The notes beneath the pieces were generated by a model that made no database searches, had not been told where the DNA came from, and was given only the letters and a program-made list of their open reading frames with translations. DNA of 64,000 bases from Ectothiorhodospiraceae bacterium WFHF3C12 (GTDB lineage: Bacteria > Pseudomonadota > Gammaproteobacteria > Nitrococcales > Nitrococcaceae), in the NCBI GenBank assembly GCA_013519935.1, contig JACDUA010000002.1, forward strand, positions 62,001 through 126,000. The letters are read 5' to 3'. The position numbers were made by a program, and so were the translations under genes. Positions 1,298 to 6,325 of the stretch are shown here, one piece after another (the first letter of the stretch is position 1; every line of letters begins with the position of its first letter).

Positions 1298-1876
1298 ATG
1301 TTGAAGAAGACACTCGGTACGGGATTTCTTGCGGCGGCCCTGTCGCTCCCCGGCGTGGCCCAGGCGGAGTCGGCATTTCACGGCAACGTGCACGCCCTGT
1401 TCGGCTACAAGCAGCTGAACGACGGTGATTTTGACGACCTGCAGGACCAGGCGGTCTGGGGCGCGATGTTCGACTTCCGGGTCGGGGACTGGCCCGTGAA
1501 CATCGCCCTGGACGCGTTGGTCTCAGCCAGCGCCGAGGACGAGAACGACGTCGAAACCGGCGTGGCCACGCTGGAGCTCTCGCTCGGCGTGCGCAAGTAT
1601 TTCGACTTCTCGAGCGTGGCCATTCACCCCTTCGTGGGCGGCGGGGTCAGCCGCATCGGCGCGGGCATCGATATCGAGGACGAAAACGGGCCGGACGAGG
1701 ACGACAGCGATGGTGCCTTTGGCGGCTACCTGACGGCGGGTGCCGTCTACACCATCAGGGAGCATGTCAACCTGGGTGCCATCTATCGCTACTCCCACGC
1801 CGAGGTCGAGCTTCTCGACGAGGACTACAACGTCGGCGGTCACAATCTGATGCTGATGGCCGGCTATCGCTGGTAG
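1298..1876 (+). CDS. Outer-membrane beta-barrel protein of unknown role
   Basis: This 192-residue protein has a Sec signal peptide (MLKKTLGTGFLAAALSLPGVAQA) and alternating hydrophobic/polar strands ending in the aromatic C-terminus AGYRW, a usual signature for BamA-recognised outer-membrane barrels. An acidic loop (DIEDENGPDEDDSDG) lies near residues 125-140, in keeping with a surface-exposed or salt-adapted protein. AAGGA is 7 bases before the ATG. The size fits an 8-stranded barrel of the OmpW/OmpX/YfaZ kind, but I cannot assign a subfamily. It stands alone between a divergent sigma factor gene and a convergent secreted-protein operon. Confidence 0.7.
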   Translation: MLKKTLGTGFLAAALSLPGVAQAESAFHGNVHALFGYKQLNDGDFDDLQDQAVWGAMFDFRVGDWPVNIALDALVSASAEDENDVETGVATLELSLGVRKYFDFSSVAIHPFVGGGVSRIGAGIDIEDENGPDEDDSDGAFGGYLTAGAVYTIREHVNLGAIYRYSHAEVELLDEDYNVGGHNLMLMAGYRW

Positions 1877-2001: not shown

Positions 2002-2805
2002 CTACGGCGAGCACTGTACGGTGTCGACGATCATGTTGCAGCCCATGCTCCTGCCACCGAAGACCTGGCCGTTCGCCGTGTCGTCGTCGTTGCCGATGAA
2101 TATGTTGGAAACGTAGGCCGCGTGGCTTGGGGCACCATTCGCCGAGCCGTAGAGACCGGGTCCGCCGTTGTTGAGGAAACGGTTGTCCCGGATCAGGCCG
2201 CTGGCGACGTACGCGCCCGCATTACGGTTCCCGACAACCAGCGAGTTGGTGAGCTCGAGCATGGCCTCGCCTGTGAACGCACTGACGCCGGCGTCCCCGT
2301 TGCGGACGAGCTCGCAATTCTGGACCATGACGTTCGACTGGGCGCGGATCCCGTCCCCGCCGTTCTGCTCCACCCGCAGATTCTGCAGGCGGTTCGCGGA
2401 GCCGGCATCGATACCGTACTGGCCGAAGCCAACGACGCTGCCGTTGCGTATCACGTTGCCCGCGCCCGCATCGACGCCGACGCCCGTGCCGGTACCCGAA
2501 CAGCCGGTGACCGGAGTGCCGCTGCAGGTGGTGGATCCCTGAAGCGTGAACCCGTTCAGGTCCAGCGTCACCCCCGAGGCGGAAATGGCGATGCCTGTCG
2601 TACTCCCGCCGGATACCTGCAGGTTGGAGGTGAGGATGTAGCTGCCAGAGCTGCCGATCTCCACGGGAAAGCCGGGGTTGTCGCCCGCGAAGCAGCCGTC
2701 GGCGACGCAGGCGGTGTTGATCTCGATGGAGCCATCATCGGCCAGGGCCGGGAAGGCGCCGACAAGCATGAGGCAGGCGGTGACATAGCGGTTCAGGAAG
2801 GACAT
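2002..2805 (-). CDS. Secreted right-handed parallel beta-helix protein (copy B)
   Basis: This 267-residue protein has a signal peptide cut near ALA-DDG. The mature part begins with a motif shared with the copy at 4326-5123 (SIEINTACVADGCFAGDNPG then FPVEIGSSGSYILTSNL). Repeats rich in N-x-L/V-x-x-N/G follow (VTLDLNGFTL, VIRNGSVVGFG, RLQNLRVEQNGGDGI, MVQNCELVRNG, LRNN-type turns), the pattern of pectate-lyase-like beta-helices. The C-terminus GCNMIVDTVQCS carries a likely disulfide pair. No catalytic residues of known polysaccharide lyases can be identified, so a structural or glycan-binding role is as likely as catalysis. It is the last gene of a three-gene run, 45 bases after the lipoprotein gene. 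Confidence 0.75.
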   Translation of the reverse strand: MSFLNRYVTACLMLVGAFPALADDGSIEINTACVADGCFAGDNPGFPVEIGSSGSYILTSNLQVSGGSTTGIAISASGVTLDLNGFTLQGSTTCSGTPVTGCSGTGTGVGVDAGAGNVIRNGSVVGFGQYGIDAGSANRLQNLRVEQNGGDGIRAQSNVMVQNCELVRNGDAGVSAFTGEAMLELTNSLVVGNRNAGAYVASGLIRDNRFLNNGGPGLYGSANGAPSHAAYVSNIFIGNDDDTANGQVFGGRSMGCNMIVDTVQCSP

Positions 2806-2850
2806 TGTGAATCTCCTGGCTTACGGGTCGCGCGGCCGGTAAAGACCGGG

Positions 2851-4275
2851 TTATCGGTTGTCGCTGAGCGCGGTTACATCGGCCGTGGTCCCGAGGGCCG
2901 ATTCGGTATCCACGGCGCGCTGGCCGATGCCGCTGGCGGTGTCGGCCAGCAGCACCTCGCCGTTGCCGAAGGCCACGCCGCTGGCGCTGCCGCCGGTGCG
3001 GGTGGACAGGGCGATGGTGTCGGCGTCGCGCAGGGTGACCGCGTCCACGTCCGCGCCGTCGTCCAGGCCGAGGGCGGCGGCCGCCAGGAACAGCGAGAAT
3101 GTGCTGCCGTCGTAGCGCACCAGGTCGGCGTCGCTGAAGCTGGTGCCGCCAGCAGAAAAATGAATACTGGTGGAGAAGATCAGGTCGCCGTTGCCGGAAA
3201 CGGTCACGGCATCCACGTCCACGCCGTCGGATAGCCCCGCGGCGCTGGCGTCCAGGGCCAGGCTATAGGTGCCGCTGTCGTAGAGGACCACGTCGCCCGG
3301 GGCCGCTACCGTGCCGCCGAGGTTGGCGTGCTGGTCGAGTGAGAAGTAATAGCGTGAGTCATTGACCCGTTCGTAGGCGTCAACTCCCGCTGGGGTGACG
3401 TTGATGGTACTCAGAATCTGCAGGTCTGAGGACTCGGGCTCATACGCGAGCACATCCACCGGCGTCACGGTCTGGCTGTTCACGGTGGTCGTGGGCGAGA
3501 GTAAGAGATACCAGGCGAAGGTGGGTTGGACCGTCACCGTGACGGTGCCGGAGGCCTGATCACCGTCCGCGTCCTCGATCGTGTACTCGAAGCTGTCCGC
3601 GCCGCTGTAGTCGGCTGCCGGTGCATACGCAATGCTGTCGTCCGTCGGGTCGTCGGGGGTGCCGCCGTCGTTGATCGTGGCGGAGCCGTTGCCGGGCGGG
3701 GTCGACACGGTAATGGCACTGCTGCCGGGACCATCACCACCAAAATCGTCATTGCCGAGCACGTTGACCGTTGTCGCGTTATCGTTCTCCTCGACCGTCA
3801 GGGCATCATCACCGGCTGCCGGCGTATCGTTAACCGAGCTAACGGTGACCGTGACAGTGCCAACCGCGCTGTCGCCGTCGGCGTCCTCGATGACATAGGT
3901 GAAGTTTTCCATGCCGTTGTAATCGGGATCCGGCGTGTACTCGATGGTGTCGTCCGCGGGCGCCGACGGCGTGCCGCCGTCATCGATGGTGGCGGTGCCG
4001 TTGCCGGGCGCCGAGGACAGCGCCAGGGCAACGCTGCCTGGCCCGTCCGTGCCGAAGCTATCGTTGTCCAGGACGTCTATGGTTGTCGCGCCGGCGTCCT
4101 CGTTGATGGACACGCTGTCCTCGACCGCCGATGGCGCGTCTTCAACGGCGCCGTTGCCGCCACCGTCGCCACCACCACCACCTCCGCCGCAGCCGCTCAA
4201 GAGCAGAGCAAACAGGACTGCCGGCGTGGCCAGACGCCGGATCTCCATCGGAATCGCTTGGCTGAGGGCTTTCAT
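2851..4275 (-). CDS. Lipoprotein with two tandem Ig/cadherin-like domains
   Basis: The N-terminus ends in a lipobox, LLLSGC (Cys about residue 29), followed by a glycine-rich linker (GGGGGGDGGGNG), so export and lipidation are expected. Two repeats of about 90 residues follow (roughly 45-130 and 135-225), each with VNVLGNDDFG/IDVLDNDSFG, GNGTATIDDGGTP, Y-x-P-D-x-D-Y-x-G and YxIEDADGD. These are features of Big_9/cadherin-like 'tandem-95' domains that bind calcium. The C-terminal 230 residues hold a further internal duplication around GVDVDAVTVSGNGDLIFST and GADVDAVTLRDADTIALST. GGGG lies 7 bases before ATG 4275; an internal ATG at 4248 lacks a Shine-Dalgarno. It is flanked by paralogous beta-helix genes, suggesting a surface assembly. 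Confidence 0.8.
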   Translation of the reverse strand: MKALSQAIPMEIRRLATPAVLFALLLSGCGGGGGGGDGGGNGAVEDAPSAVEDSVSINEDAGATTIDVLDNDSFGTDGPGSVALALSSAPGNGTATIDDGGTPSAPADDTIEYTPDPDYNGMENFTYVIEDADGDSAVGTVTVTVSSVNDTPAAGDDALTVEENDNATTVNVLGNDDFGGDGPGSSAITVSTPPGNGSATINDGGTPDDPTDDSIAYAPAADYSGADSFEYTIEDADGDQASGTVTVTVQPTFAWYLLLSPTTTVNSQTVTPVDVLAYEPESSDLQILSTINVTPAGVDAYERVNDSRYYFSLDQHANLGGTVAAPGDVVLYDSGTYSLALDASAAGLSDGVDVDAVTVSGNGDLIFSTSIHFSAGGTSFSDADLVRYDGSTFSLFLAAAALGLDDGADVDAVTLRDADTIALSTRTGGSASGVAFGNGEVLLADTASGIGQRAVDTESALGTTADVTALSDNR

Positions 4276-4325
4276 TGGGTTACCCCATGGCTATGTCTGT
4301 TGAACTACCTTCGCGACTCGCGCGG

Positions 4326-5123
4326 TTACGGGCAGACGGCACTGTCGGCGACCACGTTGCAGCCGGTGGTCAGGCCACCCTGCAACTGGTCGCCCGCGCT
4401 GCCGTCGCCGTTGCCGCGGAAAATGTTCTGGGCGTAGGCCGCCGCGGAGGAGCTCGTGTATGAGCGAAGGCCGTTGTCGCCGTTGTGGCTGAAACGGTTG
4501 TGGGTCACGACCCCCGATTGCACGCGGGCCCCGTAACCGCCGTTGCCCCGAATCAGGGAATGGTTCAGTTCCAGCATTGCCTCCAGACCGTAGGCATTGA
4601 TGCCTACCGCGCCGTTGCGAATCACCTTGCAGCCGGTGATTGTCGCGCCCGCGCCCACGTCGATGCCGTCGATGCCGTTGGACGCCACCCGCAGGTTCTC
4701 CAGCCGGGCCGCTGTTCCGACAACGACACCCGTATCGCCGAAGCCGACGACGTTGCCGTTGAAGACGTGTATCCGGCTGTAGGGGTAGCCGTCGATTCCG
4801 ATCCCGGTGCCCGAGGTGGAGCAGGTCGCGGGCGTGCCGCTGCACTCTACCGGTCCGCCGACGGTGAAGCCGTTGAGGTCCAGCGTGACATTATTCGAGT
4901 CGATGACGATGGCCGTGGTCACCGCGTCGGATACGGCCAGGTTTGACGTGAGTACGTAGCTGCCCGAGCTGGCGATCTCCACGGGAAAGCCGGGATCGTC
5001 GCCCGCAAAGCAACCGTCGGGGACGCAGGCCGCGTTGATTTCGATGGCGCCGTCCCCGGCCATCACCGTAGGCAGATAGAAGGCCAGACCAAGCGCCAGA
5101 ATCGTTCCGTTCAACCGTGACAT
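4326..5123 (-). CDS. Secreted right-handed parallel beta-helix protein (copy A)
   Basis: This 265-residue protein starts at ATG 5123 (MSRLNGTILALG), with GGGGAG 9 bases upstream; upstream in-frame codons lack such a site. After a signal peptide ending near VMAGDG it repeats the CFAGDDPGFPVEIASSGSY block of the gene at 2002-2805, then beta-helix turns (VTLDLNGFTV, VFNGNVVGFGDTGV, RLENLRVASNGIDGI, TITGCKVIRNG). The end, GLTTGCNVVADSAVCP, keeps the two cysteines of the paralogue. The pair is clearly homologous across its length but diverged, so the duplication is old. It is the first gene of the run, 50 bases ahead of the lipoprotein gene. Confidence 0.75.
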   Translation of the reverse strand: MSRLNGTILALGLAFYLPTVMAGDGAIEINAACVPDGCFAGDDPGFPVEIASSGSYVLTSNLAVSDAVTTAIVIDSNNVTLDLNGFTVGGPVECSGTPATCSTSGTGIGIDGYPYSRIHVFNGNVVGFGDTGVVVGTAARLENLRVASNGIDGIDVGAGATITGCKVIRNGAVGINAYGLEAMLELNHSLIRGNGGYGARVQSGVVTHNRFSHNGDNGLRSYTSSSAAAYAQNIFRGNGDGSAGDQLQGGLTTGCNVVADSAVCP

Positions 5124-5275
5124 GCGTTGGGCTCCCCGATAGGCGGTGTCCCAAGGCAATATTGAGCCTGCGTTGCCGAGGGACAGGTGAGTTTCTGGAA
5201 ACCTACGGGGTTGGGGGTCGACCCACCACCCCCCGAATAGGGGGGTGCGTCGCCGACGCTGGCCGCGCCGTGGCC

Positions 5276-5683
5276 TCAGGCGTTGTGCCGCTGGTCGGGC
5301 GGGGAGCCGCCTGGTGGCGCCGCGGCCTGCCTGGTCGCCAGGAACTGGTTCAGCTCCGCCTGATCCCGGGCGCGCTGCAGGTCCCGCGCAAAGTCCTCGA
5401 AAGCCGTCTGCTCTTCGGCCAGGCGCCGCTTCTCCGCCTCGATGCGTTCCAGGGTCTCCCGCTTATAGGCGTCGAACGCCATGTTGCCGCTCCGGCGATG
5501 CAGCCGCAGGTGGTCACGCGCGGTCTTTCCGGGCCGCCGGAACGGCCACTTGCCCAGGCGCCAGAGCAGGATAGCCAGGCCGATGGGCCAGAACACGACG
5601 AACCCGACGATCATGGCCGCCAGGGTGGCTGGTCCGTGCGGGTCGGGCATTGGAATCGATGGGAACTGCCACTGATGAATCAT
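5276..5683 (-). CDS. DUF2852 family inner-membrane protein
   Basis: This 135-residue protein starts at ATG 5683 (MIHQWQFPSI), with GAGGGG 6 bases upstream; an alternative TTG at 5704 would lie inside an operator palindrome. One membrane segment (AAMIVGFVVFWPIGLAILLW, about 23-42) is followed by a basic stretch and then a charged helix (FDAYKRETLERIEAEKRRLAEEQ, DFARDLQRARDQAELNQFL). The order WPIGLAILxW - FDxYxxETLxRLExE - FxxxLxxARDxAEFxxFL is that of DUF2852 proteins of unknown function. It is divergent from a PadR regulator across two palindromes, so it is the obvious candidate target of that regulator. Confidence 0.8.
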   Translation of the reverse strand: MIHQWQFPSIPMPDPHGPATLAAMIVGFVVFWPIGLAILLWRLGKWPFRRPGKTARDHLRLHRRSGNMAFDAYKRETLERIEAEKRRLAEEQTAFEDFARDLQRARDQAELNQFLATRQAAAPPGGSPPDQRHNA

Positions 5684-5696
5684 GATTGGCCCCTCT

Positions 5697-5716
5697 ATAT
5701 GCAATTAATTGCATAT
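5697..5716. promoter_or_regulatory. Palindromic operator O1 of the PadR / DUF2852 divergent region
   Basis: ATATGCAATTAATTGCATAT is a perfect 20-base palindrome in an otherwise GC-rich region. It lies between the start of the DUF2852 gene and its putative -10 (CATAAT, reverse strand 5720-5715). A repressor bound here would block transcription. It matches O2 centred 39 bases away in both arms, and the ATGCAA/TTGCAT half-sites fit those described for PadR-family repressors. Confidence 0.75.
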
Positions 5717-5735: not shown

Positions 5736-5755
5736 ATATGCAACAATTTGCATAT
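5736..5755. promoter_or_regulatory. Palindromic operator O2 of the PadR / DUF2852 divergent region
   Basis: ATATGCAACAATTTGCATAT has the same 8-base arms as O1 and a 4-base asymmetric centre. It ends 15 bases before the PadR ATG at 5771 and overlaps the putative -35 (TTGCAT, reverse strand 5743-5738) of the DUF2852 promoter. The placement suggests PadR represses both itself and the divergent gene. Confidence 0.75.
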
Positions 5756-5770
5756 AGAGAAGGAGGGGTC

Positions 5771-6325
5771 ATGTCTTTGAAGTACGTGCTGCTGGTGACG
5801 CTCACCCAGGGCGAGATGACCGGTTACGACATCGCCTCGCGCTTCGACCGGCGTCTGAGCTTCGTCTGGCACGCCACGCATCAACAGGTGTACCGGGAGC
5901 TGCGCAAGCTGGAGGAGGCGGGGCTGGTCCTCCACCGGCTGGAGGGCCAGGCGGAGAAGCCGGACAGGAAGCTCTACCGGCTCACCGCCGAAGGCGAGTC
6001 CGTGCTGCATGCCTGGTTGGTGGCCGACAATGCCTCGACCCCGGCCAAGGTGAAGGAGCCGCTGCTGGTGAAGTGCTTCGCGGGGGATTACATGCCGCCG
6101 CAGGATCTGCTCGCCCAGGTGCGTGAGGCCCGGGAGGGCTACCGGCGGCGGCTGGCGGTCCTGAAGGACATCGAGAAGGGCGCGCGGGCGGACGTGCCCC
6201 GGCCGACGGCCGGACAGACCATGGCGTTCCTGGCCCTGCGCCGCGGCATACGTTCCGCCGAGAGCTGGATCGAGTGGGCCGACGAGGCGGAGCAGGCCCT
6301 GTTGCCATTCATCGACGACGGCTAG
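5771..6325 (+). CDS. PadR-family transcriptional regulator
   Basis: This 184-residue protein has an N-terminal winged helix (MSLKYVLLVTLTQGEMTGYDIASRF, HQQVYRELRKLEEAGLV, PDRKLYRLTAEGE) typical of PadR, and a C-terminal alpha-helical dimerisation region (about 95-180) of the Vir_act_alpha_C type, as in subfamily-1 PadR proteins such as PadR and AphA. The start at 5771 is preceded by AGGAGGGG; upstream in-frame codons lie in the operator. PadR proteins usually repress and release DNA on binding phenolic or other small ligands. The ligand here is unknown. The only evident target besides itself is the divergent DUF2852 gene. Confidence 0.9.
   Translation: MSLKYVLLVTLTQGEMTGYDIASRFDRRLSFVWHATHQQVYRELRKLEEAGLVLHRLEGQAEKPDRKLYRLTAEGESVLHAWLVADNASTPAKVKEPLLVKCFAGDYMPPQDLLAQVREAREGYRRRLAVLKDIEKGARADVPRPTAGQTMAFLALRRGIRSAESWIEWADEAEQALLPFIDDG

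Follow-up and report, generated by a model that had tools for sequence, protein, structure and literature searches.

Gene organization of the cassette

The window analyzed here, a 64,000-nucleotide stretch of the genome of Ectothiorhodospiraceae bacterium WFHF3C12 (genome G000 below), carries a cassette of three genes on its minus strand. According to the open reading frame list, these encode, in order, BH1 (positions 5123 to 4326; 265 amino acids), a lipoprotein (4275 to 2851; 474 amino acids), and BH2 (2805 to 2002; 267 amino acids). The intergenic gaps are 50 and 45 nucleotides, confirming the three same-strand genes with 45- to 50-base gaps described in an earlier sequence-only reading of this DNA. 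Shine-Dalgarno-like stretches precede the ATG of BH1 (GGGGAG, within 5124 to 5153, minus strand) and that of BH2 (AGGAG, within 2806 to 2835, minus strand), and a scan for promoters and terminators detected none. Judged from the sequence, BH1, the lipoprotein, and BH2 each open with a Sec-type signal peptide.

On one side, the cassette is convergent with a gene for a small outer membrane β-barrel protein (OMP_b-brl; 1298 to 1876, plus strand). On the other lies a DUF2852 gene (5276 to 5704, minus strand) that is missing from 58 relatives save for two weak matches, so this flank is also lineage specific. A PadR-type regulator gene (5738 to 6325, plus strand; PadR and Vir_act_alpha_C domains) is divergent from the DUF2852 gene, and its product may possibly control its neighbors. 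No exopolysaccharide genes were recognized among the ten larger open reading frames near the cassette. The GC3 of the trio (0.82 to 0.86) matches that of its neighbors (0.84 to 0.88), which gives no indication that the trio was recently acquired from a genome with another composition. The genome also encodes a type II secretin, GspD (E value, 6e-182), and a further lipoprotein (L020; G000:C153:5558-8857) that resembles the one in the cassette in having a lipobox (LSGC) followed by poly-Gly.

BH1 and BH2 are paralogous secreted β-helix proteins

BH1 and BH2 are 51 to 52% identical end to end (BLASTP; E value, 6e-82). Both match PF13229 (Beta_helix), with E values of 3e-12 and 3.2e-12 and scores of 46.8 and 46.9 bits against a curated cutoff of 25.9 bits, and no other PF13229 gene was found in the 4.6-Mb genome. 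BH1 comprises a signal peptide (residues 1 to about 22), a head with a Cys-x4-Cys motif (residues 24 to 62), a right-handed β-helix, and a C-terminal Cys-x8-Cys-Pro tail. Identity between the paralogues is 85% in the head, 47 to 53% in the coils, and 44% in the tail. In a tree of 13 homologues, BH1 and BH2 are sisters (support, 95/95), with a dN of 0.44 and a dS of about 0.85 to 1.1. One other member of the family (L057:9671-10840) has an additional C-terminal domain of ∼120 amino acids beyond the helix, in which no Pfam match was found.

The helix fold was predicted confidently in an AF2 model of BH1 (mean pLDDT, 83.8; pTM, 0.83). By VIA-align, the model superimposes on 8ja4 with a Z score of 22.1 and a root mean square deviation of 2.8 over 210 residues, and its fold matches (Z scores of about 19 to 22) comprise the alginate epimerases/lyases AlgE4, AlgE6, and AlgG, phage depolymerases, tailspikes, and RbmB. 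A search of the PDB with the BH1 sequence gave no match. These results uphold the sequence-only reading of the pair as paralogous β-helix proteins with signal peptides and a shared head. The two-Cys tail that it also described is present, but it is not the sole likely Cys pair, of which there are three (33/38, 94/101, and 255/264). Within the family, Cys33 and Cys38 are lost jointly in five members, while Cys94, Cys101, and the last Cys are near invariant, a pattern that fits disulfides and an oxidizing location outside the cytoplasm.

Alginate epimerase- and PL6-type β-helix enzymes have a catalytic motif of the Asp-x-His type or conserved Lys/Arg residues in the groove. BH1 and BH2 contain neither D-x-H nor H-x-D, and no His, Lys, or Arg position reaches 60% conservation among the 13 family members; the conserved positions are those of the head, Asn/Gly turns, and Cys. 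Searches of Pfam and NCBIfam with BH1 and BH2 gave no enzyme family match. An enzymatic reading of BH is thus not supported by its residues, and a noncatalytic structural or binding role is preferred.

Phage-related identities were also considered. That BH proteins are phage tailspikes, despite the fold match, was rejected, because each gene encodes a Sec signal and the surroundings showed no phage genes. A prophage or mobile-element origin was likewise rejected because the GC3 of the trio resembles that of its neighbors and phage or plasmid homologues are lacking: BH1 had no match in plasmid and phage collections, PHROGs gave no useful match, and viral contigs gave one weak partial match (L083). 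The alignment of the lipoprotein C-terminal domain, described below, was too variable for scanning viral contigs.

The lipoprotein combines an Ig-like part with a propeller-like domain

The signal peptide of the lipoprotein ends in a lipobox (LLSG-C29), and Cys29 is the only Cys of the protein. A poly-Gly/Asp linker follows, then two Big_9/cadherin-like domains (residues about 46 to 250) and a C-terminal domain, here termed LC. The protein matches PF17963 (Big_9) in two stretches (E value, 3.9e-28; 98.6 bits against a cutoff of 23.6), PF17892 (Cadherin_5; E value, 3.7e-15; 56 bits against a cutoff of 26.5), and Cadherin_4. The Ig-like part of its structural model is poor, having been built on a shallow alignment, and searching the PDB with the lipoprotein sequence gave chance matches only. 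The two cadherin-like domains and the repeated C-terminal half noted in the sequence-only reading were both found, but the Ig-like part spans only about residues 46 to 250, and the repeats form a separate domain.

LC (2851 to 3519, minus strand; residues about 250/253 to 474) contains four blade-like repeats of about 55 amino acids. Two neighboring units of 53 residues share 42% identity, and repeat models trained solely on other proteins score 46 and 43 bits on these units, compared with ≤8.2 bits in 500 shuffled sequences; with the same models, weaker units flank the two strong ones on either side. The lipoprotein model is confident only at residues about 298 to 455 (block pLDDT, 75 to 91), where it shows repeated four-strand units. 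From 298 to 454, the model contains three blades of four long strands, along with a short hairpin; with pLDDT values of <50 at 247 to 296 and 456 to 474, it lacks the first blade and ring closure. Foldseek matches are mostly β-propellers (BT4673, NHL, YCF48, and DFPase) and include polysaccharide-sensing and nutrient-binding surface propellers. With VIA-align, LC matches Pizza and NHL propellers (Z scores, 9 to 11) and the periplasmic propeller of TolB (1crz; Z score, 9.2). LC is accordingly predicted to be a β-propeller, for which the sequence suggests four blades and a C-terminal ADVTALSD strand that would complete blade 1 (velcro closure). No Pfam or NCBIfam model matched the LC region of the lipoprotein or of three LC homologues.

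BH and LC genes recur as neighbors in other bacteria

Querying genome contigs with BH retrieved three loci (L040, L041, and L042), and a BH profile run over 369 class genomes found members in G068, G211, G418, and G129. In L040 an LC gene lies directly upstream of the BH gene (E value of 9e-11 in a single-sequence search with the window LC), with 10 nucleotides from its end to the BH start. In L058 (G211) an LC gene lies directly downstream (E value, 3.6e-14, same search), within about 15 nucleotides after the BH gene. In L041, a probable LC gene begins after two BH genes and is truncated by the contig end; the match of this incomplete gene to the window LC is weak (BLASTP E value, 0.043), and its LC profile match is partly circular, L041 having served as a training row. 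BH and LC are therefore immediate same-strand neighbors in L040, L058, and probably L041, and the gene order differs between L040 and L058. Because both L040 and L058 were retrieved by the BH query alone, their LC neighbors were not selected for, and the recurrent same-strand adjacency supports a functional link.

At the genome level, LC was found in 6 of 339 and BH in 5 of 369 class genomes, and three (G000, G211, and G068) have both. Since L058 (G211) was a training row, the independent case is G068, in which the LC and BH genes are located on different contigs. With 1 and 3 genomes, respectively, the orders to which G068 and G211 belong are too small for a wider comparison of synteny. Among 398 phylum genomes, BH was present in five, including this genome, whereas 58 relatives in its family, order, and class yielded none, which marks the cassette as dispensable and its distribution as scattered.

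At most BH loci, the stretch read contains no LC neighbor; these loci include L042, L055, L056, and L059, whose BH genes lack the Cys pair. The Cys-x4-Cys head (Cys33/Cys38), on the other hand, occurs in every BH that adjoins an LC gene, and the tree groups the members with this head together at a support of 88/91, short of the starred level. One BH copy is present in L040 and in L058, and two are present in L041 and in the window. An Ig/cadherin-like part and a lipid anchor were seen in this genome only; the other LC proteins are plain secreted propellers or a Calx-beta version. In the latter, from G068 (L067:8472-10496), the propeller is joined by three Calx-beta domains and by a tail that resembles IPTL-CTERM but scores below the curated cutoff. 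The LC proteins of L058 (808-1653) and L040 (112-744) have a similar short motif at the C terminus (IYKNGFD and VFRNGLEAH, respectively), perhaps a sorting signal, which the window lipoprotein lacks.

The existence and recurrence of a BH-LC cassette, with homologues in unrelated bacteria, are thus well supported. The sequence-only reading had looked to co-occurrence of all three genes and had proposed a single surface assembly of paralogues around a lipid-anchored partner. Co-occurrence was borne out by the neighbors in L040, L058, and probably L041, but the conserved partner is the C-terminal propeller-like half, not the Ig-like part. The proposed assembly is supported in part, through the functional link, and the lipid anchor and the two BH copies are not general features.

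Proposed role and alternative explanations

We tentatively favor, at somewhat short of an even chance, a noncatalytic adhesion or matrix-binding cassette that is tethered to the outer membrane and combines the Cys-headed β-helix family with a four-repeat propeller-like domain. The adhesion or matrix-binding role is inferred from this architecture and from analogy, not homology, with Vibrio RbmB and RbmC/Bap1. We infer the outer membrane placement, export route, physical association, and glycan or adhesion function as follows. All three proteins most likely exit the cytoplasm via Sec. The lipoprotein would then most likely reach the outer membrane, where a lipid anchor would tether it and its two Ig-like domains would form a stalk presenting LC, the propeller, at the tip. 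BH1 and BH2, probably stabilized by disulfides, may be released or bound beside the lipoprotein, possibly through a type II secretion system, which appears to be encoded in the genome. BH1, BH2, and the lipoprotein would jointly bind either a polysaccharide of the surface or matrix or the surface of another cell, without catalysis.

A broader form of this proposal, which we consider possible but rather doubtful, is a two-part surface system in which the Cys-headed β-helix is the secreted ligand or fiber subunit for an undescribed family of four-bladed propellers, carried in different bacteria on different anchors (lipid and Ig stalk, Calx-beta and IPTL-CTERM-like, or free). Equally doubtful is that the products share regulation only and form no complex, the two copies of a duplicated β-helix gene simply flanking an unrelated lipoprotein gene. 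The divergence of the paralogues and the many BH loci without an LC neighbor would agree with such independent proteins, but BH and LC genes adjoin each other again in two or more unrelated loci of different gene order (L040 and L058), and probably in L041, and all LC-adjacent BH proteins have the Cys head.

The nearest solved folds of BH1 (AlgE4, AlgE6, AlgG, phage depolymerases, and RbmB) and the polysaccharide-sensing and nutrient-binding propellers among the Foldseek matches of LC would instead suit a carbohydrate-active cassette, with BH1 and BH2 as divergent polysaccharide lyases or epimerases (CASH-type β-helix) and the lipoprotein as a surface glycan-binding or docking protein. This is unlikely, as identity to the fold matches is 9 to 17%, the BH helix is short and variable beyond the head, Asp-x-His is absent from BH1 and BH2, the family conserves Gly, Asn, Cys, and the head rather than His, Lys, or Arg, and no enzyme family was matched in Pfam or NCBIfam. 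That the proteins instead stay in the periplasm, with the propeller scaffolding envelope assembly or a stress response, appears quite improbable. The Sec signals on all three proteins, the adjoining outer membrane protein gene, and the similarity of LC to TolB agree with an envelope maintenance module of this kind. However, the two Ig/cadherin-like stalk domains and the Calx-beta/IPTL-CTERM-like version in G068 suit extracellular display better, and close relatives lack BH, unlike the case for envelope housekeeping genes.

Comparison with known systems

Annotation of either half of the cassette stops at the level of fold, and Pfam and NCBIfam contain no model for the propeller domain. The adjacency of BH and LC therefore provides a testable partner for secreted β-helix proteins that annotation leaves hypothetical, and the presence of one propeller on different anchors suggests a modular display scheme. 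We found no description of the combination of BH and this propeller in the literature searched, in which subscription papers were mostly out of reach.

Although BH1 and BH2 exceed the cutoff of PF13229, whose proteins are annotated only as right-handed parallel β-helices, that family is a fold-level grouping, and the head, the three Cys pairs, and the propeller partner lie outside its definition. The two Big_9-like domains of the lipoprotein are of the same kind as those of Tandem-95, CshA, and Bap-type Ig-repeat adhesins. However, the protein falls below the NCBIfam cutoffs of NF012211 (77.6 versus 90 bits) and TIGR04225 (26.3 versus 60 bits) and differs from these adhesins in having just two repeats, a lipid anchor, and another C-terminal domain.

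Another of the nearest known systems is the rbm/Bap1 gene set of Vibrio cholerae, in which, as in the cassette, a secreted right-handed β-helix is paired with a secreted β-propeller. RbmB cleaves matrix polysaccharide (PMC11637428), while the RbmC/Bap1 propeller binds it (PMC10102183). The resemblance of BH1 to RbmB (Z score of about 20) is at fold level only, with 8 to 11% identity, and RbmB is an enzyme, whereas BH has no conserved catalytic set. Similarly, RbmC/Bap1 has an eight-bladed propeller with β-prisms (PMC10102183), whereas LC has room for four repeats, no prism profile matched the lipoprotein, and the cassette protein has a lipid anchor and Ig domains. If BH1, BH2, and the lipoprotein do bind exopolysaccharide jointly, the cassette would represent a second, independent matrix design built from a β-helix and a β-propeller, beside that of Vibrio.
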